NCBI GenBank assembly: GCA_016213325.1 | Contig: JACRAY010000024.1 | Coordinates: forward strand, 1 to 64,000 | Length of the DNA: 64,000 nt | Reading direction: 5' to 3' | Origin: Burkholderiales bacterium | Lineage (GTDB): Bacteria; Pseudomonadota; Gammaproteobacteria; Burkholderiales; Burkholderiaceae_C | Shown: positions 4,223-61,469 of the stretch, one piece after another | Position numbering within the stretch: the stretch's first letter is position 1 | Layout: each line of letters opens with the position of its first letter | The notes under the pieces: generated by a model | Told to the model about the DNA's origin: nothing | What the model saw: the letters and a program-made list of their open reading frames with translations, nothing else | Databases searched by the model: none | Position numbers and translations under genes: made by a program

Positions 4223-4236
4223 TTGACCTCGGTCAA
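4223..4236 (+). promoter_or_regulatory. Crp/Fnr-type palindrome upstream of PAS-frc1
   Basis: TTGACCTCGGTCAA is a TTGAC-N4-GTCAA dyad, the first of five near-identical copies in the window. It lies about 97 bp before the PAS gene start. A possible -10 (GCGAAT, 4261-4266) begins after a 24-bp gap, 1 bp more than at the other four sites. The motif GGGTAAACCCTA sits just downstream on the minus strand (4252-4241). Binding by the local Crp/Fnr proteins is inferred. Confidence 0.65.
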
Positions 4237-4333
4237 CGCCTAGGGTTTACCCCTCAATTGGCGAATCTTGATGGCGGTCAACGGCCAGCCGCGCGCCGAG
4301 GCGGCACAGTGGCTCCACCAGAAGGAGTTGACG

Positions 4334-4780
4334 ATGTCCAGCAGTATCCAAACGATCGACTGCGAACAGCTCGTGCGCGCCATGGGCGACGCCGTGGTCG
4401 TGGCCGACGCCGCCAACCGCATCGTGATGTGGAACGCCGCGGCCACGCGCATCTTCGGCTTCACGCCCGAAGAAGCCATGGGCCAGTCGCTCGACCTCAT
4501 CATCCCCGAGCGGCAGCGCGCGCGCCACAACGAAGGTTTCGCCAAGACCATGGCCACCGGCATCACGCGCTACGGCGCGTCGCTCCTGCGCGTGCCCGCG
4601 CTGCACAAGGACGGACAGCGCCTGTCGATCGCCTTCACGGTCTGCATGCTGACCGGCGCCGCAGGCCAGGTGGAAGGCATCGCCGCCGTCATCCGCGACG
4701 AAACCGAACGCTTCGAAGAAGACCGGGCGCTGCGCAAGCGCATCGCCGAACTGGAAGCGGCAATCAAGGAGAAAGCTTGA
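4334..4780 (+). CDS. Single-PAS-domain protein coupled to frc
   Basis: The 148-aa cytosolic protein consists of one PAS fold (about residues 8-125, with [22 protein letters not shown] at its start) and a short C-terminal coiled coil rich in E, R and K. There is no output domain such as a kinase, GGDEF or HTH. A FixL-type haem-binding His is not evident, since the corresponding stretch reads ITRYGASLL. The start ATG at 4334 has AAGGAG 6 bp upstream. Its TGA overlaps the frc ATG by one base (TGATG), so the two are translationally coupled. A sensory or adaptor role tied to the CoA-transferase is inferred from this coupling only. Confidence 0.8.
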
Positions 4781-6027
4781 TGGACAAGGCCCTGGCCGGT
4801 GTGCGCATCCTGGACTTCACGCACGTGCAGTCCGGCCCCACCTGCACGCAGCTGCTGGCGTGGTTCGGCGCCGACGTGATCAAGGTCGAGCGGCCCGGCG
4901 AAGGCGACGCCACGCGCGCCCAGCTGCGCGACATCCCCGGCGTGGACAGCCTGTACTTCACGATGCTCAACCACAACAAGCGCTCGGTCACGCTCAACGC
5001 CAAGACGGCGTCGGGCAAGGCGCTGCTGGAAGCGCTGATCCGCCACTGCGACGTGCTGGTGGAGAACTTCGCACCGGGGGCGATGGAGCGCATGGGTCTC
5101 GCGTGGGAACGCATTCACGAACTGAACCCGCGCATGATCGTGGGCTCGGTCAAGGGGTTCGGCCCGGGCCGCTATGAAGACTGCAAGGTCTACGAGAACG
5201 TGGCGCAGTGCGCCGGCGGCGCGGCGTCCACCACTGGCTTCGGGGACGGCCCGCCGGTGGTCAGCGGCGCGCAGATCGGCGACAGCGGCACCGGCCTGCA
5301 CCTGGCACTGGGCATCGTCACCGCGCTCTACCAGCGCACGCACAGCGGCCGCGGCCAGAAGGTGCTGGCGCCCATGCAGGACGCCGTGCTCAACCTGTGC
5401 CGCGTGAAGCTGCGCGACCAGCAACGCCTGGAGCGCACGCACACGCTGCACGAGTACCCGCAGTACCCCGACGGCCACTTCGGCGACGCCGTGCCGCGTG
5501 CCGGCAATGCCTCGGGCGGCGGGCAGCCCGGCTGGATCCTGCGCTGCAAGGGCTGGGAGGACGACCCCAATGCCTATATCTACTTCATCACGCAGGCCGC
5601 GGTGTGGCCGGCCGTGTGCAAGGTGATCGGCGAAGAGGGCTGGATCGAGGACGACGCCTACAAGACGCCGCAGGCGCGCCTGCTGCACCTGAAGCCGATC
5701 TTCTCGCGCATCGAGCAATGGACCATGACCAAGACCAAGTTCGAGGCCATGGAGATCCTGAACCAGTACGACATACCCTGCGGCCCCATCCTGTCGATGA
5801 AGGAGATCGCCGAAGATCCGTGGCTGCGCATGAGCGGCACGGTGGTGGAAGTGGAGCACCCGACGCGGGGGCGCCACCTGACGGTGGGCAACCCCATCAA
5901 GCTGTCGGACAGCCCCACCGAGGTGACGCGCGCGCCGCTGCTGGGCGAACACACCGAGGAAGTGCTGCGCGAGCTGGGCTACACCGCCAGCGACATGAAT
6001 GCCCTGCGCGCCGAGGGCGCCATCTGA
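4780..6027 (+). CDS. frc: Formyl-CoA:oxalate CoA-transferase (first copy)
   Basis: A 415-aa class III CoA-transferase (CaiB/BaiF family) that transfers CoA from formyl-CoA to oxalate, giving oxalyl-CoA and formate. Alignment from memory with Oxalobacter Frc places the catalytic aspartate at D168 (IGDSGTG) and Q17 in the THVQSG motif. The Gly-rich active-site loop ASGGGQPGW is present. Length matches the family (416-428 aa). It differs from the second copy (61494-62762) by a shorter loop after ASTTG and by conservative changes, and the two are roughly 70% identical by eye. It follows the PAS gene with a TGATG overlap. YfdE-type acetyl-CoA:oxalate transferase activity is an alternative. Confidence 0.9.
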
Positions 6028-6137
6028 GCGCGTGCGATGCATCACGCCGCACTGATGGTCTGGATAAAAACTATTGACTGTTATTCGAGGGCGTGTGTCC
6101 GTAAATTCTCTTCGTACACACCTTCGAGGAGACAGCG

Positions 6138-6446
6138 ATGATGAACGACCTTCCGCCCGGGCTCGTGGACGCAGCCGATGCGCACGACGCGTACAACGCC
6201 GTGTTCTACGAGCTGGGCCTGCGCTGGCACTGGGACCGCGACCTGTACCAGGCCCTGCAGCATGCCAGCCGCGACCCGCTGGGGCGCATCTGCCACTACA
6301 TCGAGAACTGGCAGCCGCACCTGCTGAAGGCCTATGACGCGCAGGCACTGGCCACCACCATCTACCAGCGCGTGCTGGCGCACAAGCCCTGCGCGCACCG
6401 CAGCTTCGACTGGTCGGCGGCCGCCACCTGCGAAGTGGGCGTCTGA
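6138..6446 (+). CDS. Conserved hypothetical protein, nitrile-hydratase-subunit-like length
   Basis: I do not recognise this 102-aa protein securely. It is soluble and rich in aromatic residues and His, with a WHWDRDLYQAL segment and a C-terminal Cys pair separated by about 20 residues. GAGGAG at 6124-6129 precedes the ATG. It ends one base before the FAH-family gene begins, so the two are co-transcribed. A role with the downstream hydrolase is inferred from adjacency only. Confidence 0.65.
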   Translation: MMNDLPPGLVDAADAHDAYNAVFYELGLRWHWDRDLYQALQHASRDPLGRICHYIENWQPHLLKAYDAQALATTIYQRVLAHKPCAHRSFDWSAAATCEVGV

Positions 6447-7217
6447 ATGAAAAGCACACGCTGGGTCCGTTATCGTCTCGAAGGCGCCGAAGCCTTCGGC
6501 ACGCTGCACGGCGAGCGCATTGCCGAGCACGAGGGCCACATGTTCGGCCACGCCACGCCCACCGGCCGCGACGTGGAGCTGGCGCAGGTTCAGCTGCTGT
6601 GCCCGGTGCAGCCCACCAAGGTGGTGGCGCTGTGGAACAACTTCGGCGAGCTGCGCGCGAAGCTGCAGCTGGCGCACCCCGAGGAGCCGCTGTACCTGCT
6701 GAAGGCACCCAATGCCTGGAGCGCGCACGGCGACCCTATTCCGCTGCCGCGCGGCGGCGGCAAGGTGGCGTACGAAGGCGAGCTGGGCATCGTCATCGGC
6801 AAGCGCTGCAGCAGCGCCACGGAAGCCGAAGCCATGGCCAGCGTGTTCGGCTACACCTGCGCCAACGACGTCACGGTGGCCGACGTTCTGTTTCGCGACG
6901 CGTCGTTCGCGCAGTGGACGCGCGCCAAGGGGCTGGACGGCTTCTGCCCGATGGGCCCCGTGGTGGCCACCGGGCTGGACCCCGCCACGCTGGTGGTGAA
7001 GACGCTGCTGGACGGGCAGGTGCGCCAGCACTACCCGATCAGCGACATGACTTTTTCCGTGGCGCAGCTGGTAAGCCGCATCTCCGTGGACATGACCTTG
7101 CTGCCGGGCGACGTGATCCTGTGCGGCACGTCGGTGGGCGTCGGCTCCATGAAGCCGGGCAGCCTGGTCGAGGTGGAGATCGAAGGCATCGGCCGGCTCG
7201 CCAACCGGTACGCCTGA
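6447..7217 (+). CDS. Fumarylacetoacetate hydrolase (FAH) family protein
   Basis: The 256-aa protein has the FAH C-terminal fold. The metal-binding acidic triad is visible as the two Glu of VAYEGELGIVIGKR and the Asp of CANDVTVADV. The family hydrolyses, isomerises or decarboxylates small diketo- and oxo-acids (HpaG, YcgM and oxaloacetate decarboxylase types), and the exact substrate cannot be told here. It starts directly after the stop of the 102-aa gene. The ketopantoate-reductase-like gene follows 24 bp later, which suggests a short catabolic operon for a keto acid. Confidence 0.88.
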   Translation: MKSTRWVRYRLEGAEAFGTLHGERIAEHEGHMFGHATPTGRDVELAQVQLLCPVQPTKVVALWNNFGELRAKLQLAHPEEPLYLLKAPNAWSAHGDPIPLPRGGGKVAYEGELGIVIGKRCSSATEAEAMASVFGYTCANDVTVADVLFRDASFAQWTRAKGLDGFCPMGPVVATGLDPATLVVKTLLDGQVRQHYPISDMTFSVAQLVSRISVDMTLLPGDVILCGTSVGVGSMKPGSLVEVEIEGIGRLANRYA

Positions 7218-7241
7218 TTCCACCATTCACAGGACACCCCC

Positions 7242-8267
7242 ATGAAATTCGCCATCATCGGAGCCGGCGCCATCGGCGGCCTCGTGGGCGCCAGGCTGGC
7301 GCTCGCGGGCGAGGACGTCACCTTCCTCGTGCGCGGGCGCAACCTGCAGGCGATCCGCGCGCGCGGCATCAAGCTGGAAACGGCCGACGGCAAGGAGCAC
7401 GTCACGGGCGAAGTGCGGGCCACCGACGACTACGCCGCCGCCGGTGCGCAGGACGTGGTGGTGCTTGCCATGAAGGCCCACCAGGTCGAAGCCGTGCTGC
7501 CGTCGCTGCACCACCTGCTGGCGCCGCACACCGTCATCGTGCCGATGCAGAACGGCATTCCGTACTGGTACTTCCAGAAGCATGGCGGCCCGCACGACGG
7601 CCACTGCGTGACCAGCGTCGACCCCAAGGGTGCCATTGCCGCAGCCATCGACCCCGAGCGCGTGGTTGGCTGCGTGGTGTACCCGGCATCCGAACTCGTC
7701 GCGCCGGGCGTGATCCGCCACATCGAGGGCGACCGCTTCCCGCTGGGCGAGCTGGACGGCCGCAGCACCGACCGTGTCAACGAAATCGCCGCGGCCTTCA
7801 TCAACGCCGGCTTCAAGGCGCCGGTGCTGGACGACATCCGTGCCGAGATCTGGCTCAAGCTGTGGGGCAACGCCACTTTCAACCCCATCAGCAGCCTGGC
7901 GCATTCGACGCTGGTGGACATCTGCCAGTACCCGCTGACGCGCGAGCTGGCCGTCGCCATGATGACCGAGGCGCAGGAAGTCGCGCACAAGCTGGGCATC
8001 ACCTTCCGCGTGTCGCTCGACAAGCGCATCGCCGGCGCCGAACGCGTGGGCAAGCACAAGACGTCGATGCTGCAGGACGTGGAGGCGGGCCGCGAGCCCG
8101 AGATCGACCCGCTGGTGGGCTCGGTGATCGAGCTGGCGCGCCTGACCGGCACGCCCACGCCGCACATCGACACGGTGTATGCGCTGGTGAAGCTGCTGGC
8201 GCGCACGATGCAGGAACAGAGCGGCCACGTGCGCCTGCGCGAACTCGACGAGGCGATGGCCGCGTGA
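7242..8267 (+). CDS. 2-dehydropantoate 2-reductase-like (ApbA/PanE family)
   Basis: A 341-aa NADPH-dependent oxidoreductase. The Rossmann motif GAGAIGG lies at residues 7-13. The family's catalytic Lys and Asn are in IWLKLWGNATFNPIS, and the conserved Glu is in MLQDVEAGREPEID. PanE reduces 2-dehydropantoate, but many Burkholderiales homologues sit in catabolic operons and act on other 2-oxo acids. The neighbours (FAH family, LysR) favour the catabolic reading, so panE is not assigned. AGGACACCCCC precedes the ATG. Confidence 0.85.
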   Translation: MKFAIIGAGAIGGLVGARLALAGEDVTFLVRGRNLQAIRARGIKLETADGKEHVTGEVRATDDYAAAGAQDVVVLAMKAHQVEAVLPSLHHLLAPHTVIVPMQNGIPYWYFQKHGGPHDGHCVTSVDPKGAIAAAIDPERVVGCVVYPASELVAPGVIRHIEGDRFPLGELDGRSTDRVNEIAAAFINAGFKAPVLDDIRAEIWLKLWGNATFNPISSLAHSTLVDICQYPLTRELAVAMMTEAQEVAHKLGITFRVSLDKRIAGAERVGKHKTSMLQDVEAGREPEIDPLVGSVIELARLTGTPTPHIDTVYALVKLLARTMQEQSGHVRLRELDEAMAA

Positions 8268-8277
8268 TGGCAACGCC

Positions 8278-9273: not shown

Positions 9274-9289
9274 GCGAGAGGAGCCCACC

Positions 9290-9496: not shown

Positions 9497-9508
9497 GTCC
9501 ATGGCGGG

Positions 9509-43848: not shown

Positions 43849-43891
43849 TTGACTGCGGTCAATGGCATCGCGGGGCCGCCAAAGCGATAGT
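43849..43891 (+). promoter_or_regulatory. Crp/Fnr-type operator and -10 of the fds operon
   Basis: TTGACTGCGGTCAA (43849-43862) is followed after 23 bp by GATAGT (43886-43891). This places the palindrome centre near -41.5, the class II activator position. The same layout occurs at 56037, 58228 and 61427. Confidence 0.75.
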
Positions 43892-43924: not shown

Positions 43925-44383
43925 ATGAGCACAGCCGCCAGCGCGGCACCCTACGACCCGGCCGCCGTGGCGCGCGTCATCGCCGAACGCGGCCACCTCG
44001 ACGGTGCGCTGATGCCGGTGCTGCACGGCGTGCAGGAAGCGCTGGGCTGGGTGCCGGCCGAAGCCGTGGGCCAGATCGCGCAGGCACTGGACCTGTCGCG
44101 CGCCGAAGTGCACGGCGTCATCAGCTACTACCACCACTTCCGCCAGCAGCCCGCGCACGGCCCGGTGCTGCAGGTGTGCCGCGCCGAGTCGTGCCGCTCG
44201 GTCGGCGGCGAGCAACTGCTGCAGCATGCGCAACGGCATCATCACGGCTGCCATGTAGAGGCCGTCTACTGCCTCGGCCTGTGCGCGCAGTCGCCGGCCG
44301 TCATGCTGCAGGGGCAGCCGCATGCGCGCGTCACCGCCGAGAAGCTCGACCGGCTGGTGGCCGAAGCCGGGGCGCACGCATGA
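43925..44383 (+). CDS. fdsG: NAD-dependent formate dehydrogenase, gamma subunit
   Basis: A 152-aa NuoE-like subunit with a [2Fe-2S] thioredoxin-like domain: C85-x4-C90 and C116-x3-C120. It passes electrons within the soluble, molybdenum- or tungsten-dependent FdsGBA complex that oxidises formate to CO2 and reduces NAD. Start at MSTAAS (43925), about 63 bp after the operator. It overlaps fdsB by 4 bp (ATGA). Confidence 0.95.
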   Translation: MSTAASAAPYDPAAVARVIAERGHLDGALMPVLHGVQEALGWVPAEAVGQIAQALDLSRAEVHGVISYYHHFRQQPAHGPVLQVCRAESCRSVGGEQLLQHAQRHHHGCHVEAVYCLGLCAQSPAVMLQGQPHARVTAEKLDRLVAEAGAHA

Positions 44384-45897
44384 GCACCATCGTCTACGTG
44401 CCGCGCGACGCCGCCGCGCTGGCGGCCGGTGCCGACGCCGTTGCTGCAGCGATCGAACGCGTAGCCGCCGCGCGCAACGCCGAAGTCACCATCGTGCGCA
44501 ATGGTTCGCGCGGCCTGTTGTGGCTGGAGCCGCTCGTCGAAGTGCAGTCCGAGCATGGGCGCATCGGCTACGGGCCGGTTGCGCTGGACGACGTGCCGTC
44601 GCTGTTCGCCGCCGGCTTCCTGAAGGGTGATCCGCATCCGCTGTGCCTGGGACCGGTCGAGGAACTGCCGCAGTTCCGCCTGCAGCAGCGCCTGACGTTT
44701 GCGCGCTGCGGGCTCGGCGACCCCCTGGCGCCTATGGCGTGGCGCGGGCTGCAGGAAGCGCGCAAGCTCTCGCCAGAAGCCATCGTGCAGCAGGTGCTCG
44801 ACTCGGGCCTGCGCGGCCGCGGCGGCGCCGCCTTCCCGGCAGGCATCAAATGGCGCACCGTCGCCGCCACGCCTTCGAAACAGAAGTACGTGGTGTGCAA
44901 TGCCGACGAAGGCGACTCGGGCACCTTCGCCGATCGCATGCTGCTGGAAGGTGACCCGTTCCTGCTGATCGAAGGCTTGGCGATTGCCGCGCTGGCTGTC
45001 GGCGCGAGCAAGGGCTTCGTCTACATCCGCTCCGAGTACCCGCACGCCATCGCCACCTTCGAGGCGGCGTTGGCCGAAGCGCGCAAGGCCGGTGTGCTGG
45101 GCCAAGGCTTCGACATCGAAGCGCGTGTCGGCGGCGGCTCCTATGTGTGCGGCGAAGAAACCGCGATGCTCGAAAGCCTGGAGGGCAAGCGCGGCATCGT
45201 GCGCGCCAAGCCGCCGCTGCCGGCTATCAGCGGCCTGTTCGGCCAGCCCACCGTCATCAACAACGTGCTCACCTTCGCGGCCGTGCCGACCATCCTGGAG
45301 CGGGGCGCCGACTTCTACCAGCACTTCGGCACCGGCCGCTCGCGCGGCACGCTGCCGTTCCAGCTGGCGGGCAACGTCAAGCAAGGCGGCTTGTTCGAGT
45401 TGCCCTTCGGCCTGACGCTGCGCGAGGTGGTGTTCGACATCGGCGGCGGCACCGCCAGCGGCCGCCCGGTCAAGGCGATCCAGGTGGGCGGCCCGCTGGG
45501 CGCCTACGTGCCCGAGTCGCAATGGGACCTGCCGCTGGACTACGACGCCTACACCGCCCAGGGTTTGGTGCTGGGCCATGGCGGCATCGTGGTGCACGAC
45601 GACACGGCCGACATGGCACAACTCGCGCGTTTCGCCATGGAGTTCTGCGCGGTCGAGTCGTGCGGCAAGTGCACGCCGTGCCGCATCGGCTCCACCCGCG
45701 GCGTCGAGGTGATCGACCGCATCGTGGCCAACCACAACCGCCCGCAGCAGGTGCGCCTGCTGCGCGACCTGTGCGACACCATGGTCCACGGCAGCCTGTG
45801 CGCCATGGGCGGCATGACGCCGTTCCCGGTGCTGTCGGCGCTGGACCACTACCCGCAAGACTTCGGCCTCGTCGACGAATCCGCGAAAGCCGCCTGA
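44380..45897 (+). CDS. fdsB: NAD-dependent formate dehydrogenase, beta subunit
   Basis: The 505-aa NuoF-like subunit has an N-terminal thioredoxin-like extension, an FMN/NAD-binding core (GRGGAAFPAGIKW, NADEGDSGTFADR, GSYVCGEETAM) and a C-terminal [4Fe-4S] motif (ESCGKCTPCRIG). It is the NAD-reducing subunit of the complex. The gene sits between fdsG and fdsA in the canonical order and shares an ATGA overlap with fdsG. Confidence 0.96.
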   Translation: MSTIVYVPRDAAALAAGADAVAAAIERVAAARNAEVTIVRNGSRGLLWLEPLVEVQSEHGRIGYGPVALDDVPSLFAAGFLKGDPHPLCLGPVEELPQFRLQQRLTFARCGLGDPLAPMAWRGLQEARKLSPEAIVQQVLDSGLRGRGGAAFPAGIKWRTVAATPSKQKYVVCNADEGDSGTFADRMLLEGDPFLLIEGLAIAALAVGASKGFVYIRSEYPHAIATFEAALAEARKAGVLGQGFDIEARVGGGSYVCGEETAMLESLEGKRGIVRAKPPLPAISGLFGQPTVINNVLTFAAVPTILERGADFYQHFGTGRSRGTLPFQLAGNVKQGGLFELPFGLTLREVVFDIGGGTASGRPVKAIQVGGPLGAYVPESQWDLPLDYDAYTAQGLVLGHGGIVVHDDTADMAQLARFAMEFCAVESCGKCTPCRIGSTRGVEVIDRIVANHNRPQQVRLLRDLCDTMVHGSLCAMGGMTPFPVLSALDHYPQDFGLVDESAKAA

Positions 45898-45910: not shown

Positions 45911-48766
45911 ATGCACATGCACGAAACCGACTACGGCACGCCGCGCAGCGACTCCGACACCCAGGTCACGCTGGAGATCGACGGCCAGCCGGTCACGGTG
46001 GCCGCCGGCACCTCGCTGATGCGCGCCGCCATCGAGGCAGGCATCAGCGTGCCCAAGCTGTGCGCCACCGACAGCCTGGAATCGTTCGGCTCGTGCCGCA
46101 TGTGCATGGTCGAAGTGGAAGGCCGACGCGGCTACCCGGCTTCGTGCACCACGCCGGCCGAAGCCGGCATGAAGGTCCGCACGCAAAGCGACAAGCTCGC
46201 CAAGCTGCGCCACGACGTGATGGAGCTGTACATCTCCGACCACCCGCTCGACTGCCTGACCTGCAGCGCCAACGGCGACTGCGAGCTGCAGGACATGGCC
46301 GGCGCGGTGGGGCTGCGCAACGTGCGCTACGGCTTCGACGGCGCCAACCACCTGAAAGAGAAGAAGGACGAGTCCAACCCGTACTTCACCTACGACCCCA
46401 GCAAGTGCATCGTGTGCAACCGCTGCGTGCGCGCCTGCGAGGAGACGCAGGGCACCTTCGCACTCACCATCAGCGGCCGCGGCTTCGAGTCGCGCGTGTC
46501 GCCCGGGCAGGACCAGGCCTTCATGGACAGCGAATGCGTGAGCTGCGGCGCCTGCGTGCAGGCCTGCCCCACCGCCACGCTGCAGGACAAGAGCGTGGTG
46601 TCGCTCGGCATGCCGACGAAGAGCGTGGTGACGACCTGCGCCTACTGCGGCGTGGGCTGCGGCTTCAAGGCCGAGGTCAAGGGCGAGCAGGTGGTGCGCA
46701 TGACGCCGTGGAAGGACGGCCAGGCCAACGACGGCCATTCGTGCGTGAAGGGCCGCTTCGCCTGGGGCTACGCCACGCACAAGGACCGCATCACGAAGCC
46801 GATGATCCGCAAGGCCATCACCGACCCGTGGCGCGAAGTGGGCTGGGACGAGGCCTTCGCCTACGCCGCCAGCGAGTTCAAGCGCATCCAGGGCGCGCAC
46901 GGCCGCGACTCGGTCGGCGGCATCACGTCGTCGCGCTGCACCAACGAGGAAACCTACCTCGTGCAGAAGCTCATCCGTGCCGGCTTCGGCAACAACAACG
47001 TCGACACCTGTGCGCGCGTGTGCCACTCGCCCACCGGCTACGGCCTGAAGCAGACCTTCGGCGAGTCGGCCGGCACGCAGACCTTCCGCTCGGTAGAGCA
47101 GTCCGACGTGATCATGGTGATCGGCGCCAACCCGACCGATGCGCACCCGGTGTTCGCCTCGCGCATGAAGAAGCGCATCCGCGCCGGCGCGCGCCTGATC
47201 GTGGCCGACCCGCGGCGCATCGACCTGGTGGCGTCGCCGCACGTGCGGGCCGACTACCACCTGCAGTTGAAGCCCGGCACCAACGTGGCGCTCATCACGT
47301 CGATGGCGCACGTGGTCGTTACCGAAGGGCTGCTGGACGAGTCCTTCATCGCCGGGCGCTGCGAGGAGAAGTCGTTCCGGCAGTGGCGCGAGTTCGTCGC
47401 GCGCGACGCCAACTCGCCCGAGGCGATGGAAGCCGTCACCGGCGTGCCTGCCGACCTGGTGCGCGGCGCCGCGCGCCTCTATGCCACCGGCGGCAATGCC
47501 GCCATCTACTACGGCCTGGGCGTCACCGAGCATGCGCAGGGCTCCACCATGGTGATGGGTATCGCCAACCTCGCCATGGCCACCGGCAACGTGGGGCGCG
47601 AAGGCGTGGGCGTCAACCCGCTGCGCGGGCAGAACAACGTGCAGGGCTCGTGCGACATGGGCTCGTTCCCGCATGAACTGCCCGGCTATCGCCACGTGTC
47701 CGACAGCACCGTGCGAGCCGAGTTCGAGGCGGCCTGGGGCGTGTCGCTCGCCGCCGAGCCCGGCCTGCGCATCCCCAACATGTTCGACGCCGCGCTGGAA
47801 GGCAGCTTCAAGGGCCTGTACGTGCAGGGCGAAGACATCGTGCAGTCCGATCCCAACACGCAGCACGTGACGGAAGCCCTGTCGAAATTGGAATGCCTGG
47901 TGGTGCAGGACCTGTTCCTCAACGAGACCGCCAAGTACGCGCACGTGTTCCTGCCCGGCTCGTCCTTCCTGGAAAAGGACGGCACCTTCACCAACGCCGA
48001 GCGCCGCATCTCGCGCGTGCGCAAGGTCATGAAGCCGCAGGGTGGCCTGGCCGACTGGGAAGTGACGGTCCAGCTCTCGAACGCCTTGGGCTACCCGATG
48101 GCGTACCGCCACCCCTCGGAGATCATGGACGAGATCGCCGCGCTCACGCCCACCTTCCGCAGCGTGAGCTACGCGCGCCTGGACAAGCTGGGCAGCGTGC
48201 AGTGGCCCTGCAACGAGGACACTGACGAAGCCGGCACGCCGATCATGCACGTGGATGCCTTCGTGCGCGGCAAGGGCCGCTTCGTCATCACGCAATACGT
48301 GGCTTCGCCCGAGAAGGTGACGCGCCGCTTCCCGCTGGTGCTGACCACCGGCCGCATCCTGAGCCAGTACAACGTGGGCGCGCAGACGCGCCGCACGCCC
48401 AACAACCTGTGGCACGACGAGGACCGGCTGGAGATCCACCCGCACGACGCCGAGGAGCGCGGCATTGGCGATGGCGACTGGGTGGGCATCGCCAGCCGCG
48501 CCGGCGACACCGTGCTGCGTGCTGTGGTAAGCGAACGCATGCAGCCCGGCGTGGTCTACACCACCTTCCACTTCCCTGAGTCGGGCGCCAACGTGATCAC
48601 CACCGACAGCTCCGACTGGGCCACCAACTGCCCCGAGTACAAGGTGACGTCGGTGCAGGTCACCAAGGTGACGCAGCCGTCGCAATGGCAACAGGGCTAC
48701 AGCCGCTTCAACGAGCAGCAGCTCGACCTGCTGGCGCAACGCCACGACAGCGTGGGCGCCAAGTGA
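45911..48766 (+). CDS. fdsA: NAD-dependent formate dehydrogenase, alpha catalytic subunit
   Basis: The 951-aa catalytic subunit has an N-terminal [2Fe-2S] ferredoxin domain, a His-Cys-type [4Fe-4S] region, two further [4Fe-4S] motifs (CIVCNRCVRACEE and CVSCGACVQACP), a fourth cluster (CAYCGVGCGF) and the molybdopterin domain. The molybdenum ligand Cys is in CARVCHSPTGYGLK, so this is a Cys- rather than Sec-type enzyme. It is the site of formate oxidation. Confidence 0.97.
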   Translation: MHMHETDYGTPRSDSDTQVTLEIDGQPVTVAAGTSLMRAAIEAGISVPKLCATDSLESFGSCRMCMVEVEGRRGYPASCTTPAEAGMKVRTQSDKLAKLRHDVMELYISDHPLDCLTCSANGDCELQDMAGAVGLRNVRYGFDGANHLKEKKDESNPYFTYDPSKCIVCNRCVRACEETQGTFALTISGRGFESRVSPGQDQAFMDSECVSCGACVQACPTATLQDKSVVSLGMPTKSVVTTCAYCGVGCGFKAEVKGEQVVRMTPWKDGQANDGHSCVKGRFAWGYATHKDRITKPMIRKAITDPWREVGWDEAFAYAASEFKRIQGAHGRDSVGGITSSRCTNEETYLVQKLIRAGFGNNNVDTCARVCHSPTGYGLKQTFGESAGTQTFRSVEQSDVIMVIGANPTDAHPVFASRMKKRIRAGARLIVADPRRIDLVASPHVRADYHLQLKPGTNVALITSMAHVVVTEGLLDESFIAGRCEEKSFRQWREFVARDANSPEAMEAVTGVPADLVRGAARLYATGGNAAIYYGLGVTEHAQGSTMVMGIANLAMATGNVGREGVGVNPLRGQNNVQGSCDMGSFPHELPGYRHVSDSTVRAEFEAAWGVSLAAEPGLRIPNMFDAALEGSFKGLYVQGEDIVQSDPNTQHVTEALSKLECLVVQDLFLNETAKYAHVFLPGSSFLEKDGTFTNAERRISRVRKVMKPQGGLADWEVTVQLSNALGYPMAYRHPSEIMDEIAALTPTFRSVSYARLDKLGSVQWPCNEDTDEAGTPIMHVDAFVRGKGRFVITQYVASPEKVTRRFPLVLTTGRILSQYNVGAQTRRTPNNLWHDEDRLEIHPHDAEERGIGDGDWVGIASRAGDTVLRAVVSERMQPGVVYTTFHFPESGANVITTDSSDWATNCPEYKVTSVQVTKVTQPSQWQQGYSRFNEQQLDLLAQRHDSVGAK

Positions 48767-48773: not shown

Positions 48774-49598
48774 TTGACAGCCGCACCGCCCACTTTGCCC
48801 GGCGCCTGCGCGGTGCAGGCGCTCGCCTGCCACGGCGGCGTGCTGCGGCAGGTGGCCGACTGGGTGGCCGACGAAGTGCCGGTGGCGCTGCAGTTCAACG
48901 GCGTGTCGCACGCGGTGATGCTGGCGACGCCGCTCGACCTGGAAGACTTCGCGGTCGGCTTCTCGCTGGGCGAAGGGCTGGTGGACAGCGCCGCCGACGT
49001 GTTCGGCATCGAGCCCGAAGACACCGCGCAGGGCCTCGTCCTGCACATCGAGATCGCCTCGCGTTGCCTGGCGCGCCTGAAGGCGCGGCGGCGCACGCTG
49101 GCCGGCCGCTCGGGCTGCGGCCTGTGCGGCACCGAGAGCCTGGCGCAGGCGCTGCCGCAGGTGGACCGGCGGGTGGCGCCGTTCGACCTGCAAGGCCATG
49201 TGCTGTCGCGCGCACTGGCAGAAATGCGCGCTCGGCAAGCGCTGCAAGCTGCCACCGGCGCCACGCACGCCGCCGCGTGGTGTTCGCCCGACGGCGCCGT
49301 GCAGGTGGTGCGCGAGGACGTCGGCCGCCACAACGCGCTGGACAAGGTCATAGGCGCGCTGGCGCGCGACCGCATCGATGCATCGCGCGGCTTCCTCGCG
49401 GTCACCAGCCGTGCCAGCTACGAGATGGTGCAGAAGGCCGCGCGCGCCGGCGTGGGCGCGCTGGCGGCGATCTCCGCGCCGACCGCGCTGGCCGTGCGTT
49501 GCGCCGAAGAGGCGGGCCTGTGCCTGGTCGGCTTCGCGCGCGGCGCCGACTGGGTGGCCTACAGCGGCACCGCGCACCTGATCCTTTCCTCACCATGA
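48774..49598 (+). CDS. fdsC: Formate dehydrogenase accessory sulfurtransferase FdsC (FdhD family)
   Basis: A 274-aa FdhD-family protein with the sulfur-transfer motif C115-GL-C118 (SGCGLCGTES). It delivers sulfur to the bis-MGD cofactor and protects it until insertion into FdsA. I use the TTG at 48774, which is 7 bp after the fdsA stop; no ATG gives a complete N-terminus. It overlaps fdsD by 4 bp. Confidence 0.93.
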   Translation: MTAAPPTLPGACAVQALACHGGVLRQVADWVADEVPVALQFNGVSHAVMLATPLDLEDFAVGFSLGEGLVDSAADVFGIEPEDTAQGLVLHIEIASRCLARLKARRRTLAGRSGCGLCGTESLAQALPQVDRRVAPFDLQGHVLSRALAEMRARQALQAATGATHAAAWCSPDGAVQVVREDVGRHNALDKVIGALARDRIDASRGFLAVTSRASYEMVQKAARAGVGALAAISAPTALAVRCAEEAGLCLVGFARGADWVAYSGTAHLILSSP

Positions 49599-54655: not shown

Positions 54656-55279
54656 TCAGGCCGCCACCTGCGCGCGCTGCCGCCGCGACAGGCGGCACAG
54701 CGTCTCGGCGGACAGGTTGAGGTGCGCGGCCACGTCGCGCTGCGACAGGCTTTCGGCCAGGTCGGGGTAGCGGCACGAGAAGCGGTCCACGCGGCTGGGC
54801 GCATCCAGCAGCAGCAGCGCCACGGCGTGGTCGGCGATGGCCGAGCCGAGCTGCAGCATGCGGTCGTGGAAGGCCTGGCGGGCGGCGGGGTGACGGTCCA
54901 TGAAGCTGCACCAGTCGTCCATGGCCAGCGTGGCCAGCACGGCGCGCCGTGCGCAGACGACGGCGTAGGCCGACCCGCATCGGCTGCGCCAGGCGTCGTA
55001 GGCGGTCTCGAAGTCGCCTTCGCGGGCGAAGTGCAGCGTCATCTCGCGGCCACCGGCGCTCGTGACCACGCGCTTGAGCATGCCTTCGATCACGAAGAAC
55101 TGGCGCAGTTCGCGGCCGCCCTGCTGCAGCAGCGTTTCGCCGCGCGGCACGTCCAGGACTTCGAGCATGGCGAACAGTTCCGCCTGCGCGGTGGCGTCCA
55201 GTGCGGCGAGCAAGGGGTTCGCCCTCAGCTGCAGGCTGATCGAGTTGCGTAGCGGATGGTCGTACAGCGCGCATTTCAT
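54656..55279 (-). CDS. Crp/Fnr-family regulator 1
   Basis: A 207-aa protein with a cyclic-nucleotide-binding-like domain (about residues 10-120) and a C-terminal winged helix. The recognition helix reads LSAETLCRLSRR, similar to the FNR pattern E-T-x-S-R but with Cys in place of Ser. There is no N-terminal Cys set for an FNR-type iron-sulfur cluster, so direct O2 sensing is unlikely. It sits between the response regulator and the second Crp/Fnr gene, all on the minus strand. Confidence 0.88.
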   Translation of the reverse strand: MKCALYDHPLRNSISLQLRANPLLAALDATAQAELFAMLEVLDVPRGETLLQQGGRELRQFFVIEGMLKRVVTSAGGREMTLHFAREGDFETAYDAWRSRCGSAYAVVCARRAVLATLAMDDWCSFMDRHPAARQAFHDRMLQLGSAIADHAVALLLLDAPSRVDRFSCRYPDLAESLSQRDVAAHLNLSAETLCRLSRRQRAQVAA

Positions 55280-55362
55280 GGACAGGAATGTAGGCAACCT
55301 GCCTGGCACCCGGTCCTGCAGAACGTCACCGTCCCCGTGCGCCTTCGGTCACGAACTGGCCG

Positions 55363-55374
55363 TGACGAAAGTCA
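55363..55374 (-). promoter_or_regulatory. Partial Crp/Fnr-like dyad upstream of regulator 1
   Basis: TGAC-GAAA-GTCA shares the inner 12 bp pattern of the oxalate operator (without the outer T and A). It lies 84 bp upstream of regulator 1 and past the end of regulator 2, a position where auto- or cross-regulation is possible. Confidence 0.35.
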
Positions 55375-55405
55375 TGCCGCATACGAGGGAAAACCCACGG
55401 CGAAA

Positions 55406-56014
55406 CTAGATCTTGCCCTTCTGGCGCAGGCGGCTCAGCGTTTCGGGCGTGAGGTTGAGGTACGAGGCCAGCTGCTTCTGCGGGATGCGGTCGACCAGCT
55501 CGGGTTGCTTGCGCAGGAAGCGGTGCACGCGCCCCGGTGCGTCCAGCAGGTGCAGCGTGATGGTGTGCGCCATGATCTCGCTCATCACGCCCATCACGCA
55601 GAACTCGAAGGCCGCCTTGGCCTTCGGCCGCGACTCGAGGAACGCGGCCCACTCGTGCAGGGGCATGCGCGCCACGCGCGTCTTGGTCACGCACACGATG
55701 CCGTACGGCGTGGGCGTGCCCAGGCGCCAGGCGGCGTAGCTGGTGTCCATGTCGCGTTCGGCGGCAAAGCGCAGGATCATCTCCTTGCCTTCCTGGTTGG
55801 ACACCACGCGCTTCAGGATGCCGTCGATGATGAAGTACTGCTCCATCTCCTGCACGCCCTGGTAAAGCAGGAAATCGCCCTTCTGCCCGTCGAACACCGT
55901 GAGGTGCCGCTCGAGCTCGGCGCGGTCGTCGTCGCCCAGCTCCTTCAGGATCTCGTTCTGCTTCAGCTGCAGCCGGATCACGTTGCGTTCGGGATGTTGG
56001 GCGAGCGACGTCAT
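55406..56014 (-). CDS. Crp/Fnr-family regulator 2 (candidate master of the oxalate regulon)
   Basis: The 202-aa protein has an effector-binding beta-roll (about residues 20-115), a dimerisation helix and an HTH ending in LNLTPETLSRLRQKGKI. The E-T-L-S-R of the recognition helix equals the E209, S212 and R213 contacts of FNR, which read TTGA half-sites. No FNR-type Cys cluster is present, and the ligand is unknown. It is divergent from oxc; the perfect operator TTGACCGCGGTCAA lies 23 bp upstream of its start, so it probably represses itself while activating oxc. Confidence 0.9.
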   Translation of the reverse strand: MTSLAQHPERNVIRLQLKQNEILKELGDDDRAELERHLTVFDGQKGDFLLYQGVQEMEQYFIIDGILKRVVSNQEGKEMILRFAAERDMDTSYAAWRLGTPTPYGIVCVTKTRVARMPLHEWAAFLESRPKAKAAFEFCVMGVMSEIMAHTITLHLLDAPGRVHRFLRKQPELVDRIPQKQLASYLNLTPETLSRLRQKGKI

Positions 56015-56036
56015 GGCGATCCGGTTTCTTCGATTC

Positions 56037-56079
56037 TTGACCGCGGTCAACGGAGAAAGACAGGGGCACGAATCATAGT
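56037..56079 (+). promoter_or_regulatory. Crp/Fnr-type operator and -10 of oxc
   Basis: TTGACCGCGGTCAA (56037-56050), a perfect 14-bp palindrome, then 23 bp, then CATAGT (56074-56079). It is shared by the divergent Crp/Fnr gene 2. Confidence 0.78.
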
Positions 56080-56117: not shown

Positions 56118-57872
56118 ATGTCTTCCGTCCTCGACACACCGCCTGTCGCCCTTGCCGCAGCCCCGAGCGCCGAACCGCGCCCGCTCACCGACGGCTTCCA
56201 CCTCGTGATCGATGCGCTCAAGCTGAATGGCATCGACACCATCTACGGGCTGCCGGGTATTCCCATCACCGACCTCACGCGGCTCGCGCAGGCCGAAGGC
56301 ATGCGGGTCATCTCGTTTCGCCACGAGCAGCACGCGGGCAACGCCGCGGCGGCCGCGGGCTTCCTCACGGGCAAGCCCGGCATCTGCCTCACGGTATCGG
56401 CGCCCGGCTTCCTGAACGGGCTGACCGCGCTGGCCAACGCCACGGTCAACTGCTTTCCCATGATCCTCGTCTCCGGCTCCAGCGAGCGCGAGATCGTCGA
56501 CCTGCAGCAGGGCGACTACGAAGAGATGGACCAGCTGAATGCGGCCAAGCCGTTCTGCAAGGCGGCGTTCCGCATCCTGCACGCGCAGGACATCGGCATC
56601 GGCATCGCGCGGGCCATCCGCAGCGCTGTGTCGGGCCGCCCGGGCGGCGTGTACCTGGACCTGCCGGCCAAGCTGTTCTCGCAGACCATGGATGCCGTGG
56701 CCGGGCGCAACTCGCTGGTGAAGGTGGTCGACGCGGCGCCGCGCCAGTTGCCCGCGCCCGATTCGGTGCAGCGCGCGCTCGAAGTGATCAAGGGTGCCAA
56801 GCGCCCGCTGATCCTGCTGGGCAAGGGCGCCGCCTATGCGCGCGCCGATGCCGAGATCCGCGCCCTCGTCGAGAACTCGGGCATCCCCTACCTGCCGATG
56901 TCGATGGCCAAGGGCCTGCTGCCCGACACGCACCCGCAGTCGGCCGGCGCCGCGCGCTCGTATGCGCTGGCCGAAGCCGACGTGGTGGTGCTGGTCGGCG
57001 CGCGCCTGAACTGGCTGCTGTCGCACGGCAAGGGCAAGACCTGGGGGGCCGACAAGGGCGCCAAGCAGTTCGTGCAGATCGACATCGCGCCCACCGAGAT
57101 CGACAGCAACGTGCCGATCGCGGCGCCGCTGGTGGGCGACATCGGTTCGTGCGTGGCCGCGCTCAATGCCGGCATCGGCGCGGGCTGGGCCAAGCCGCCC
57201 GCGGCCTGGGTCGGGGCCATCGCCGAGCGCCGCGACAAGAACCTGACGAAGATGGCGGCCACGCTGGCGCTCGACCCGGCGCCGATGAACTTCCACAGCG
57301 CGCTCGCGGCCATCCGCGACCTGGTGAAGCAGCGACCCGACGCCGTCATCGTGAACGAGGGCGCCAACACGCTCGACTTCGCGCGCAGCATCGTCGACAT
57401 GTACGAGCCGCGCAAGCGCCTGGACTGCGGCACGTGGGGCATCATGGGCATCGGCATGGGCTTCTCGGTGGCGGCCGCCGTCGAGACCGGCAAGCCGGTG
57501 ATCGCCATCGAAGGCGACAGCGCGTTCGGCTTCTCGGGCATGGAGGTCGAGACGATCTGCCGCTACAACCTGCCGGTGTGCATCGTCGTGTTCAACAACA
57601 ACGGCGTGTACAAGGGCACCGACGTCAACCTGTCCGGCGGCGCCGACCCGGCGCCCACGGTGTTCGTCAAGGGCTCGCGCTACGACCTGATGATGGAAGC
57701 CTTCGGCGGTAAGGGCGTGGTGGCGCGCACCAGGCAGGAACTGGCCCGGGCGCTCGACGAAGCGGTGGCCAGCGGCCGCCCGACGCTCATCAACGCCATC
57801 ATCGACGAAACCGCGGGCACCGAAAGCGGCCGCATCACCAACCTGAACCCGGCCAAGGCGGCGATCAAGTAA
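56118..57872 (+). CDS. oxc: Oxalyl-CoA decarboxylase
   Basis: A 584-aa thiamine-diphosphate enzyme that converts oxalyl-CoA to formyl-CoA and CO2. The catalytic Glu is E70 (RHEQHAG). The ThDP/Mg motif [19 protein letters not shown] ends with VFNNN (about residues 475-500). The N-terminus [12 protein letters not shown] and the central domain match Oxc. GAAGGAGAT precedes the ATG. A small gene follows, then TctCBA and frc2, giving a full oxalate module. Confidence 0.96.
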
Positions 57873-57920
57873 GGGCATCTGACCCAAGGCAAAGACGGCA
57901 AGGGTAAACCCTAATACAAT

Positions 57921-57952
57921 GACTTCCAGTGGGTCCTCGACCTCTGGGAGTC
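57921..57952 (+). promoter_or_regulatory. Leader hairpin hiding the ribosome-binding site
   Basis: Three short paired arms, GACT/AGTC, CCAG/CTGG and GGTC/GACC, fold around CTC. The GGGAG that would serve the ATG at 57959 lies in the 3' arm (57946-57950). A -10-like TAATAC/TACAAT (57912-57920) precedes it. This could be a translational switch or an RNA thermometer-like element. Prediction from sequence only. Confidence 0.4.
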
Positions 57953-57958
57953 TTTGTC

Positions 57959-58114
57959 ATGAATGCGCTGTATGCCTTGTTCCTTGCCGTCCGTTCGCCT
58001 CGTACGCTACGCCTCGTCAGGGGCTTCGCGCGCGAAGCCAATGCCCTGCTCGACGCAGTGACGAGCCCGGGCTCGTTCGTCGCCGAAGTCGAGAAGCTGC
58101 GCAAGAAGCACTAG
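57959..58114 (+). CDS. Small conserved protein (51 aa) between oxc and tctC
   Basis: The 51-aa protein MNALYALFLAVRSPRTLRLV... has an amphipathic/hydrophobic start and a charged C-terminus (EVEKLRKKH). I do not recognise the family. GGGAG lies 9-13 bp upstream within a hairpin. It is preceded by GGGTAAACCCTAATACAAT and followed by a strong terminator, so it forms its own transcription unit. Confidence 0.6.
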   Translation: MNALYALFLAVRSPRTLRLVRGFAREANALLDAVTSPGSFVAEVEKLRKKH

Positions 58115-58140
58115 GCACTCCCCGTTCGTTTTCACGCCCA

Positions 58141-58172
58141 AGGGCGCCCGCGAGGCCACTCGCGGGCGCCCT
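58141..58172 (+). terminator. Strong stem-loop after the 51-aa gene
   Basis: AGGGCGCCCGCGAG (58141-58154), loop GCCA, CTCGCGGGCGCCCT (58159-58172): a perfect 14-bp stem followed by TCGTCATT. It separates the small gene from the TctC operon. Confidence 0.8.
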
Positions 58173-58227
58173 TCGTCATTGCGTGCATGTGACTCGCGTC
58201 ATGACACGCGCATGCCGATTCGAAATC

Positions 58228-58270
58228 TTGACTGCGGTCAACGGCGTTTGACGGGCGCCCGGCCGACCAT
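58228..58270 (+). promoter_or_regulatory. Crp/Fnr-type operator and -10 of tctCBA
   Basis: TTGACTGCGGTCAA (58228-58241), 23 bp, then GACCAT (58265-58270). A weaker TGAC-TCGC-GTCA (58190-58201) lies 26 bp upstream and could be a second site. Confidence 0.72.
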
Positions 58271-58337
58271 TCGCCGCACTCCAGGGAGGCCGCGTCGTGC
58301 GTCCTCCTGAGCCGGAGCAACTTCAGGAGACAAGGCA

Positions 58338-59339
58338 ATGAAAGCAGCAAGAATCACGCGCGCCATCATCGCGGCCTTCGGCGCCGCCCTGGCCGCAGCC
58401 ACGCCCGCCTGGGCCTGGGAGCCGACCAAGGCCGTCGAATTCGTCGTGCCCGCCGGCACCGGCGGCGGCGCCGACCAGATGGCGCGGCTGATCCAGGGGA
58501 TCATCGTCAAGCACAAGCTGATGAAGGAGTCGATGGTCGTCGTCAACAAGTCGGGCGGCGCCGGCGCCGAAGGCTTCCTCGACGTGAAGAACGCCAAGGG
58601 CGACCCGCACAAAATCATCATCACGCTGTCCAACCTGTTCACCACGCCCATGGCCACCGGCGTGCCGTTCGGCTGGAAGGACATGACGCCGGTGTCGATG
58701 ATGGCGCTCGACCAGTTCGTGCTGTGGGTCAACGCCGCCGCGCCCTACAAGAACGCCAACGAGTACGTCGCCGCCGTCAAGGCGGCCGGTGCCAGCAAGT
58801 TCAAGATGGGCGGCACGGGCTCCAAGCAGGAAGACCAGATCATCACCGTGGGCCTGGAGAAGGCTACCGGCACCAAGTTCATCTACGTGCCGTACAAGGG
58901 CGGCGGCGAAGTGGCCGTGCAACTGGTGGGCAACCACATCAACTCCACCGTGAACAACCCGATCGAGGCCGTCGCGCAGTGGCGCTCGGGCGCGCTGCGC
59001 CCGCTGTGCGTGTTCGACCACGACCGCATGCCCTACAAGACCAAGGTGACCGACACGCAATCGTGGGCCGACATCCCCACCTGCAAGGAATCCGGCGTGC
59101 CCACCGACTACGTGATGCTGCGCGGCATCTTCATGGCACCCGGCGTCACGCCCGACCAGCTCGGCTTCTACGTCGAGCTGCTGAAGAAGGTGCGCGAGAC
59201 GCCCGAGTGGAAGGAGTACATGGAAAAGGGCGCCTTCAACACCACGTCGATGTCCGGCGCCGACTTCCAGAAGTGGCTGGGCGCCGCCGAGGCGCAGCAC
59301 CGCACGCTGATGACCGAAGCCGGGTTCCTGGCGAAGTAG
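58338..59339 (+). CDS. tctC: Tripartite tricarboxylate transporter binding protein (Bug/TctC)
   Basis: A 333-aa periplasmic binding protein with a signal peptide (about residues 1-26) and the Bug/TctC pattern VEFVVPAGTGGGADQMARL and GSKQEDQIITVGLEKATG. It hands a carboxylate to the TctBA membrane complex. It starts with AGGAGACAAGGCA upstream. Because an oxalate operator controls it, oxalate or a related dicarboxylate is the likely ligand (inference). Confidence 0.92.
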   Translation: MKAARITRAIIAAFGAALAAATPAWAWEPTKAVEFVVPAGTGGGADQMARLIQGIIVKHKLMKESMVVVNKSGGAGAEGFLDVKNAKGDPHKIIITLSNLFTTPMATGVPFGWKDMTPVSMMALDQFVLWVNAAAPYKNANEYVAAVKAAGASKFKMGGTGSKQEDQIITVGLEKATGTKFIYVPYKGGGEVAVQLVGNHINSTVNNPIEAVAQWRSGALRPLCVFDHDRMPYKTKVTDTQSWADIPTCKESGVPTDYVMLRGIFMAPGVTPDQLGFYVELLKKVRETPEWKEYMEKGAFNTTSMSGADFQKWLGAAEAQHRTLMTEAGFLAK

Positions 59340-59346
59340 CCCCGCC

Positions 59347-59865
59347 ATGTCGCACGAACAAGACCTGGGCGAGGGCAAGGTCCTCGCCACCAACGCCAGC
59401 GTCGACGCCGTCGTCGCCGCACTGCTCGCGCTCGTCGGGCTCGTCGTGATGGTCGAGGCGCGCCGGCTGGGGGCCTCGTGGACCAGCGACGGCCCCGGCG
59501 CCGGCTACTTCCCGTTCTACATCGGCCTGATCCTCGCGGTCGGCGGCCTGGGCATCCTGTACCAGTCGCTGCTGTCGAAGAAGGCCGACCGCGGCGCCTT
59601 CATCGACTCGCAGCAGCTGCGCCGGGTGGCGTCGGTGCTGGTGCCGTCCGCCGCCTACGTGGGCGCCATCATGCTGCTGGGCCAGTACGTGGCCTCCGCG
59701 ATCTTCCTGGCCGCCTTCATGGTCTGGATCGGCAAGTACTCGTGGTTGAAGGGCGCACTGCTCGGGGTGTTCGCCAACGCCTTCTTCTTCGCGATGTTCG
59801 AGATCTGGTTCAAGGTGCCCCTGTACAAGGGCGCGCTCAACCCGCTGGCCTTCCTGGGCTATTAA
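59347..59865 (+). CDS. tctB: Tripartite tricarboxylate transporter small membrane subunit (TctB)
   Basis: A 172-aa protein with four transmembrane helices (about residues 18-38, 55-73, 92-112 and 118-150), matching TctB. It forms the small membrane component of the carrier with TctA. The gene begins 8 bp after tctC with only a weak ribosome-binding site and is followed by tctA after 11 bp. Confidence 0.9.
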   Translation: MSHEQDLGEGKVLATNASVDAVVAALLALVGLVVMVEARRLGASWTSDGPGAGYFPFYIGLILAVGGLGILYQSLLSKKADRGAFIDSQQLRRVASVLVPSAAYVGAIMLLGQYVASAIFLAAFMVWIGKYSWLKGALLGVFANAFFFAMFEIWFKVPLYKGALNPLAFLGY

Positions 59866-59875
59866 GGGGCAACAA

Positions 59876-61408
59876 ATGGAAGAACTCTCGGCCCTGATGC
59901 AGGGCTTCGCCGTGGTGCTGTCGCCCACGAACATCGCTGTGATGTTCGTCGGCATCGTGCTCGGCGTGCTGATCGGCGTGCTGCCCGGCCTGGGCGGCGC
60001 CAACGGGGTGGCCATCCTGCTGCCGCTCACCTTCACCATGTCGCCCACCACGGCCATCGTGATGCTGTCGTGCATCTACTGGGGGGCGCTGTTCGGCGGC
60101 GCCATCACGTCGGTGCTGTTCAACATACCGGGCGAGCCCTGGTCGGTAGCCACCACGTTCGACGGCTACCCGATGGCGCAGCAGGGCAAGGCGGGCGAGG
60201 CACTCACCGCGGCCTTCACCTCGTCCTTCGTCGGCGCCTTCATCGCGGTGCTGATGATCACCTTCCTGGCACCGCTGGTGGCGAAGTTCGCGCTGAAATT
60301 CGGGGCTCCCGAGTTCTTCGCGGTGTACCTGCTCACCTTCTGCAGCTTCGTCGGCATGGGCAAGGGCTCGCCCTTCAAGGTGCTGGTGTCGATGGCGCTG
60401 GGCTTCGCGCTGGCCGCCGTGGGCATGGACACGGTGACCGGGCAGTTGCGCCTGACCTTCGGCCTGCCCGACCTGATGCGCGGCTTCGACTTCCTGATCG
60501 CGGTGATCGGCCTGTTCGGCATCGGCGAGATCCTCGCGTCGATGGAAGAAGGCCTGCAGTTCTCGGGCAAGTCCGCGCGCATCAACGCCAAGGTGGTGTG
60601 GGAGACCTGGAAGAAGCTGCCGCGCTACTGGGTCACTTCCATCCGCAGCTCGCTGGTGGGCATGTGGATGGGCATCACGCCCGGCGGCGCCACGCCCGCC
60701 TCGTTCATGAGCTACGGCCTGGCCAAGAAGATGTCGAAGAACGGCAGCAGCTTCGGCAAGGGCGAGATGGAAGGCGTGGTCGCACCCGAGACCGCAGCCC
60801 ACGCCGCCGGCACCAGCGCGCTGCTGCCGATGCTGGCGCTGGGCATCCCCGGCTCGCCCACCGCCGCCGTGCTGCTGGGCGGCCTGCTGATCTGGGGCCT
60901 GCAGCCCGGGCCGCTGCTCTTCGTCGAGCAGAAGGAGTTCGTGTGGGGCCTGATCGCGTCGATGTACCTCGGCAACCTGGCCGGCCTGGTGGTCGTGCTG
61001 TCCACCGTGCCCCTCTTCGCGTCGATCCTGCGCATCCCGTTCTCGATCATCGCGCCGCTCATCATCGTCATCTGCGCCATCGGCGCATACACGGTGCACA
61101 GCGCGATGCTCGACATCTGGCTGATGCTGCTGTTCGGCGTGATCGGCTACGTCTTCAAGAAGCTCGACTACCCGCTCGCGCCGATGGTGCTGGCGCTGGT
61201 GCTGGGCGACAAGGCCGAAGACTCGTTCCGTCAGGCCATGCTGGTGTCGCAGGGTGACGTCTCGATCATGTGGGCCAACCCGCTGGTGGGCACCATCACC
61301 ACGCTCGCCCTGCTGATGCTGTGCTGGCCGCTCATCTCGCGCCTGATCGCGCTGGTGCGCCGCCCCAAGCAGGGCAGCGCATTGCCGCAGGAGCAGCCGG
61401 TCGACTGA
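59876..61408 (+). CDS. tctA: Tripartite tricarboxylate transporter large membrane subunit (TctA)
   Basis: The 510-aa protein has 11-12 helices and the TctA signatures GVLPGLGGANGVAILLPLTF and GITPGGATPASFMSYGLAKKMSKN, plus a second GIPGSPTAAVLLGGL block. It is the main permease of the secondary (sodium-type) carrier. It is the last gene of tctCBA; the next operator and frc2 follow directly. Confidence 0.95.
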   Translation: MEELSALMQGFAVVLSPTNIAVMFVGIVLGVLIGVLPGLGGANGVAILLPLTFTMSPTTAIVMLSCIYWGALFGGAITSVLFNIPGEPWSVATTFDGYPMAQQGKAGEALTAAFTSSFVGAFIAVLMITFLAPLVAKFALKFGAPEFFAVYLLTFCSFVGMGKGSPFKVLVSMALGFALAAVGMDTVTGQLRLTFGLPDLMRGFDFLIAVIGLFGIGEILASMEEGLQFSGKSARINAKVVWETWKKLPRYWVTSIRSSLVGMWMGITPGGATPASFMSYGLAKKMSKNGSSFGKGEMEGVVAPETAAHAAGTSALLPMLALGIPGSPTAAVLLGGLLIWGLQPGPLLFVEQKEFVWGLIASMYLGNLAGLVVVLSTVPLFASILRIPFSIIAPLIIVICAIGAYTVHSAMLDIWLMLLFGVIGYVFKKLDYPLAPMVLALVLGDKAEDSFRQAMLVSQGDVSIMWANPLVGTITTLALLMLCWPLISRLIALVRRPKQGSALPQEQPVD

Positions 61409-61426
61409 CGACGGTTTTCCCGGAAA

Positions 61427-61469
61427 TTGACCGCGGTCAAGCGCGTTTCGTGGCCGCGGTTTTTAACAT
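61427..61469 (+). promoter_or_regulatory. Crp/Fnr-type operator and -10 of frc2
   Basis: TTGACCGCGGTCAA (61427-61440), a perfect palindrome, 23 bp, then TAACAT (61464-61469), the best -10 of the set. Confidence 0.78.

Follow-up and report, generated by a model that had tools for sequence, protein, structure and literature searches.

FNR binds DNA through a recognition helix with the pattern E..SR, which is also found in the protein described below, and class II geometry is known for CRP. DNR, which serves denitrification, has an FNR-like half-site. To our knowledge, the control of oxalate breakdown in bacteria is poorly understood. Here, we describe a set of 14-bp palindromes, TTGAC-N4-GTCAA, that precede oxalate and formate genes in a 64 000-nucleotide stretch from a Burkholderiales bacterium (GenBank assembly GCA_016213325.1, contig JACRAY010000024.1, positions 1 to 64 000; hereafter the window), together with crpA (55406–56014, reverse strand), which encodes a Crp/Fnr-type regulator of 202 amino acids, the proposed activator. 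Among the E. coli FNR-activated promoters with a known start that are covered in the relevant passages of PMC3688515, the site lies at −41.5±4 in 19 of 23. No Crp/Fnr regulator of oxalate genes was found among the literature matches listed, which consisted of titles and the beginnings of abstracts with subscription journals mostly outside their scope, and the matched passages of PMC10192776 contain nothing on regulation.

From sequence comparisons, it is very probable that the palindromes are the operators of a dedicated oxalate/formate regulon, with CrpA as its local class II activator. A CrpA dimer would bind TTGAC-N4-GTCAA at about −42, a class II position that overlaps the usual location of a −35 element, and would activate transcription from there. 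Its targets would be oxc (oxalyl-CoA decarboxylase), tctCBA (a tripartite transporter), frc2 and PAS-frc1 (formyl-CoA transferases, the latter with a small PAS-domain protein) and, in this lineage, also fdsGBA (formate dehydrogenase). The signal would be a compound of the pathway, and neither cyclic AMP (cAMP) nor oxygen.

The original prediction listed five palindromes, and all five are present at the positions it gave (4223, 43849, 56037, 58228 and 61427) as exact matches to TTGACYNCGGTCAA. The pattern TTGACNNCGGTCAA occurs at only nine distinct places in the whole 5.40-Mb genome, five of them inside the window (binomial P ~3e-8, an optimistic value because the pattern was drawn from the same sites). 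The looser TTGAYNNNGRTCAA is found at 36 places, six of which are in the window where 0.43 would be expected (P ~4e-6), and TTGACNNNNGTCAA with up to two mismatches gives 22 matches against a shuffle mean of 12.7.

A fixed 23-bp gap between the operator and a −10-like hexamer, all on the forward strand, was found as proposed at four promoters. At fds, the operator TTGACTGCGGTCAA (43849–43862) is followed by GATAGT (43886–43891), and at oxc the operator TTGACCGCGGTCAA (56037–56050), which lies between crpA and oxc, is followed by CATAGT (56074–56079). The operator of tctCBA is again TTGACTGCGGTCAA (58228–58241) with GACCAT (58265–58270), and has a degenerate element, GTGACTCGCGTCAT (58189–58202), upstream of it. 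The operator of frc2 is TTGACCGCGGTCAA (61427–61440) with TAACAT (61464–61469). The 24-bp gap claimed for the first site was not recovered, as no NANNNT hexamer is present at gaps of 21–24 bp from the palindrome TTGACCTCGGTCAA (4223–4236). However, a near-copy of the operator, TTGATGGCGGTCAA (4268–4281), is found downstream, and is followed after 23 bp by CACAGT (4305–4310). The near-copy is most likely the working, promoter-proximal site of PAS-frc1 and the palindrome at 4223 an upstream tandem copy. With this site, there are five promoters with the 23-bp gap, not four, and six operators in all.

The same arrangement was seen in related genomes. In G007, which belongs to the same genus, the PAS-frc1 promoter also has paired operators, 77 bp apart rather than the 45 bp in the window, with the proximal one, TTGACCCCGGTCAA, 23 bp before CACAGT. 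The gap is 23 bp throughout in G007, with CATAGT at oxc, GACCAT at tctC and TACCAT at frc2, and the operators at the orthologous PAS-frc1 and frc2 promoters were thus recovered in this one same-genus genome. G086 has CATAGT at oxc and GACCAT at tctC, both at a gap of 23 bp. That even a poor hexamer such as GACCAT is kept argues that both the spacing and the hexamer are functional. If the −10 element occupies −12 to −7, the operator is centred at −42.5 for a gap of 23 bp and at −41.5 for a gap of 22 bp, and because the gap is conserved the predicted geometry is class II. We conclude that activation at these promoters is probably of the class II type. The left TTGAC was also considered as a sigma-70 −35 element, and was rejected because a spacing of 31 bp between it and the −10 is too long.

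The prediction implied that the palindrome should be present at orthologous oxc promoters. Among the best 80 oxc loci, fetched by similarity of Oxc alone, 46 have TTGA[CT]N4[GA]TCAA in the 400 bp that precede the Oxc match. A crpA gene (>50 % identity), usually divergent from oxc, is beside oxc in 43 of the 46 loci with the site and in two of the 34 without it (Fisher P ~1e-16, with related loci treated as independent); kinship inflates these counts. Of the exceptions, L047, counted as a locus with crpA and without a site, has a one-mismatch site followed by 23 bp and CATAGT, and L054 contains a run of N and has crpA upstream of oxc, with both genes facing the same way. L054 and L083, where only 51 bp is available upstream of the Oxc match, were both scored as having no site. 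After removal of duplicates and of three loci (L074, L084 and L116) discussed below, 43 distinct oxc sites remained, and NANNNT is present at a gap of 23 bp in 25, at 22 bp in 17 and at neither in one. Thus, 42/43 have the hexamer at one of these two gaps, compared with 48/1118 at other offsets. The 5′ flank of the oxc operators is A-rich, and in most GAAA is found one base before the operator. At tctC, a site was counted if it was no more than 350 bp from the estimated gene start, and of the 32 loci in which that start could be seen, 27 have one. Among 28 tctC sites, again with duplicates removed, NANNNT occurs 15 times at 22 bp, 10 times at 23 bp and at most three times at any other gap.

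Whole genomes gave a similar picture. The 45 genomes surveyed comprised the 21 of a motif survey and 24 chosen for the best FdsG matches. Sixteen contain crpA, 18 contain oxc and 15 contain both, and 14 of these 15 have the site and hexamer upstream of oxc. In one genome, G020, crpA and oxc are on separate contigs and the oxc site is kept, with GATAAT at 23 bp. The scan of related genomes proposed with the original prediction was performed on 399 genomes of the order using TTGACCNNGGTCAA-N22/23-TATSAT, and all nine hits are at oxc promoters, whereas the reversed pattern gave none in the same 399 genomes. Some of these genomes overlap with the earlier sets, among them G017, the source of one of the nine hits, and the hits are not wholly independent of the loci above. 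crpA is adjacent in all nine, and as it faces the same way as oxc in six, the site is linked to the oxc promoter rather than to a divergent arrangement of the two genes. Without the hexamer, TTGACCNNGGTCAA has 23 distinct places in the 21 genomes, of which 15 are at oxalate or formate genes. Chance clustering of the palindromes is ruled out by the genome counts, the motif scan and the gap statistics.

The original prediction named two Crp/Fnr proteins as candidate binders, and the one encoded next to oxc, CrpA, is the likely one. CrpA belongs to the Crp/Fnr family, which is defined by an N-terminal cyclic-nucleotide-binding β-roll and a C-terminal helix-turn-helix (HTH). Its N-terminal domain is of the cyclic nucleotide monophosphate type (PF00027, score 31.5 vs a cut-off of 27.5), HTH_Crp_2 scores 21.0, below the cut-off of 27, and the predicted model (mean predicted local distance difference test score 82) matches CRP, DNR and FNR in Foldseek. 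The recognition helix ETLSRL, including E191, S194 and R195, is invariant in all 29 aligned CrpA sequences, the one from the window plus 28 taken from 40 full-length homologues. TTGA is read by FNR-type proteins through the E..SR pattern, and CrpA is predicted to share this FNR/FixK-type specificity. The residues of CRP that contact cAMP are E72, R82 and S83, and the alignment places S, T and P at these positions in CrpA. No Cys is present at invariant or nearly invariant columns of the 29 aligned sequences, where cysteines for an FNR-type [4Fe-4S] cluster were sought. Hence, neither cAMP nor an Fe-S cluster of the FNR type is a likely signal. It is possible, though doubtful, that CrpA is a metabolite sensor dedicated to oxalate, responding to oxalate itself or to one of the acyl-CoAs in its breakdown. 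In the window, 22 bp separates the operator from the start of crpA, so CrpA may also control itself; in related loci with a divergent crpA, the operator begins 13–139 bp upstream of crpA, with a further site in L105 at 283 bp. A search of plasmids with CrpA gave no match at 1e-20.

Other explanations for the sites were weighed against control by CrpA. All 36 TTGAYNNNGRTCAA places in the genome were examined for NANNNT at fixed gaps. The hexamer is at 23 bp, on the coding side, in five of the six oxalate operators, the sixth being the one at 4223. In the 60 orientations of the other 30 places, it is found at 23 bp in three, at 22 bp in 11 and at 21 bp in 11, with one orientation counted at both 21 and 22 bp. 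Many of these places appear to be promoters of the FNR type in which the gap is slightly shorter. Their existence, together with an FNR-type protein with the helix ETVSR encoded in the genome (C14:76257) and the fit of TTGA to the FNR consensus TTGATnnnnATCAA given in the passages of PMC3688515, might suggest that the oxalate genes are part of an anaerobic regulon with ordinary FNR (oxygen) or other FNR-like sites. We consider this unlikely, because the oxalate sites are of the TTGAC type, the fifth base being C in 40 of 43 oxc sites, because their gap in this genome is 23 bp while 21 or 22 bp is more often seen at the other 30 places, and because the presence of the site follows crpA, both being missing at a second oxc.

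If CrpA does bind, it might instead act as a repressor that is relieved by oxalate, since a protein in the promoter-overlapping position could also block polymerase. This is quite improbable given an operator centre near −42, which fits activation and is close to the −41.5 of most E. coli FNR-activated promoters in the passages of PMC3688515, and given that no TTGACA-like hexamer is present at the 17-bp spacing, directly after the operator. The palindrome might also belong to another protein altogether. LysR genes are located beside apbA and upstream of fds, a PAS gene is directly before frc1, and CrpB is a further candidate. However, PAS and LysR relatives are also present in oxc loci that lack the site, and CrpB was found in only 3/45 genomes and its own upstream element differs, making this very unlikely.

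Several observations do not favour a dedicated CrpA regulon. L074, L084 and L116 have paired sites but crpA was not found in view. On the 81-row Oxc tree, there are seven changes in the site and seven in crpA, and of four well-supported independent pairs two to three agree and none oppose (median P 0.25); with only four such pairs, co-evolution is not significant on the tree alone. crpA and oxc are both present in G014, yet its oxc lacks the promoter with site and hexamer. The other eight of the 23 TTGACCNNGGTCAA places have none of the 15 query proteins in their vicinity, the seven open reading frames (ORFs) beside six of the eight belong in Pfam to unrelated families or to none, and the reversed pattern has four places in the same 21 genomes. 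In addition, among six crpA genomes with an FdsG locus that were examined, the fds site is present in two and absent in four.

Inclusion of fds in the regulon, as originally predicted, stands for this lineage and not generally. The site was found at 3/30 FdsG-type loci (28 loci plus L162 and L163), namely the window locus and the two best FdsG matches, G086 and G072, each with GATAGT at 23 bp. As a general target, fds is unsupported beyond the closest FdsG. G072 has the fds site and an oxc with a site, and crpA was not found. Elsewhere, other formate genes are preceded by the operator. In G017, from another family, it is found with TATAGT at 23 bp before the gene for formate-tetrahydrofolate ligase (L204:12503–14291), and in G008 (L118) the site, with GATGGT at 22 bp, precedes an fds-like gene in an fds-like operon. 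As these targets differ, formate handling may join the regulon via different genes in each lineage.

The oxalate and formate genes of the window listed here are all on the forward strand. The PAS-domain protein gene (4334–4780; Pfam on the enclosing ORF, NCBIfam sensory_box) is followed by frc1 (4780–6027), and frc2 is at 61494–62762; both frc genes are above the cut-off of TIGR03253. The fds genes encode an FdsG-like subunit (43925–44383; Pfam 2Fe-2S_thioredx on the enclosing ORF), an FdsB-like subunit (44380–45897), an FdsA-like formate dehydrogenase alpha subunit (45911–48766; above the TIGR01591 cut-off) and an FdhD/FdsC-like accessory protein (48774–49598; above the TIGR00129 cut-off). 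oxc is at 56118–57872 (above the TIGR03254 cut-off), and tctC, tctB and tctA, encoding a candidate oxalate importer, occupy 58338–61408. The same genome includes a second oxalate set (L209), tctCBA-oxc-frc, near an fds-like operon. Its oxc (C5:188098) is 80 % identical, and neither operator nor crpA was found in a 12-kb stretch. Many oxc loci have a small PAS gene directly 5′ of frc, whether or not crpA is present. G019 (L208:5317–11069) combines frc-PAS-frc and an orthologue of crpA with the operator TTGACCAAGGTCAA, which TAAGAT follows after 23 bp. Its thiamine pyrophosphate enzyme at the Oxc position is ~25 % identical and below the cut-off of the 25 NCBIfam families shown, and is possibly a different oxalyl-CoA enzyme.

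The paralogue of crpA, crpB (54656–55279, reverse strand), encodes a protein 41 % identical to CrpA, with Ser replaced by Cys in the recognition helix (ETLCR). Upstream of it are, on the same strand, a candidate operator, GTGACGTTCTGCAG (55316–55329), with a 23-bp gap to TACATT, and a second candidate element, ATGACTTTCGTCAC (55362–55375), both of the RTGAC type instead of TTGAC. Counterparts of the first are ATGACGTTCTTCAG with TACAGT in G007 and ATGACGTTTCACAG with TAGAGT in G086, both after 23 bp, and the spacers of the three genomes are identical at just 6–11 of 23 positions. The pattern GTGACNNNNGTCAY occurs at 21 places in the genome and is weak by itself, because the reversed pattern gives seven forward and nine reverse hits. 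CrpB may tentatively be regarded as having diverged to an RTGAC operator with equal 23-bp spacing. As the operator appears shifted and the spacing kept, the pair could, speculatively, be a natural case of operator divergence between paralogues.

The proposed regulon supplies a candidate regulator for oxalate breakdown and a base-level prediction of its binding site, and points to TctCBA as a likely importer of oxalate. The operator may serve as a marker for which copies of oxc, frc and fds work together, and the operator-promoter unit would be a ready-made template for a promoter that responds to oxalate.

Compared with known systems, CrpA is like CRP in the overall fold of its predicted model, but it has S, T and P in place of E72, R82 and S83 and its half-site is not GTGA. 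The fold of DNR from P. aeruginosa (3dkw) matches CrpA over the length of the protein, though with only 21 % identity in the structural match. The FNR class II regulon of E. coli, as set out in the passages of PMC3688515, shares the TTGA..TCAA half-sites, the 14-bp inverted repeat and the position near −41.5. Unlike FNR, the aligned CrpA proteins have no invariant Fe-S cysteine, the sites are TTGAC and not TTGAT, and the predicted regulon is local to one pathway whereas that of FNR is global.

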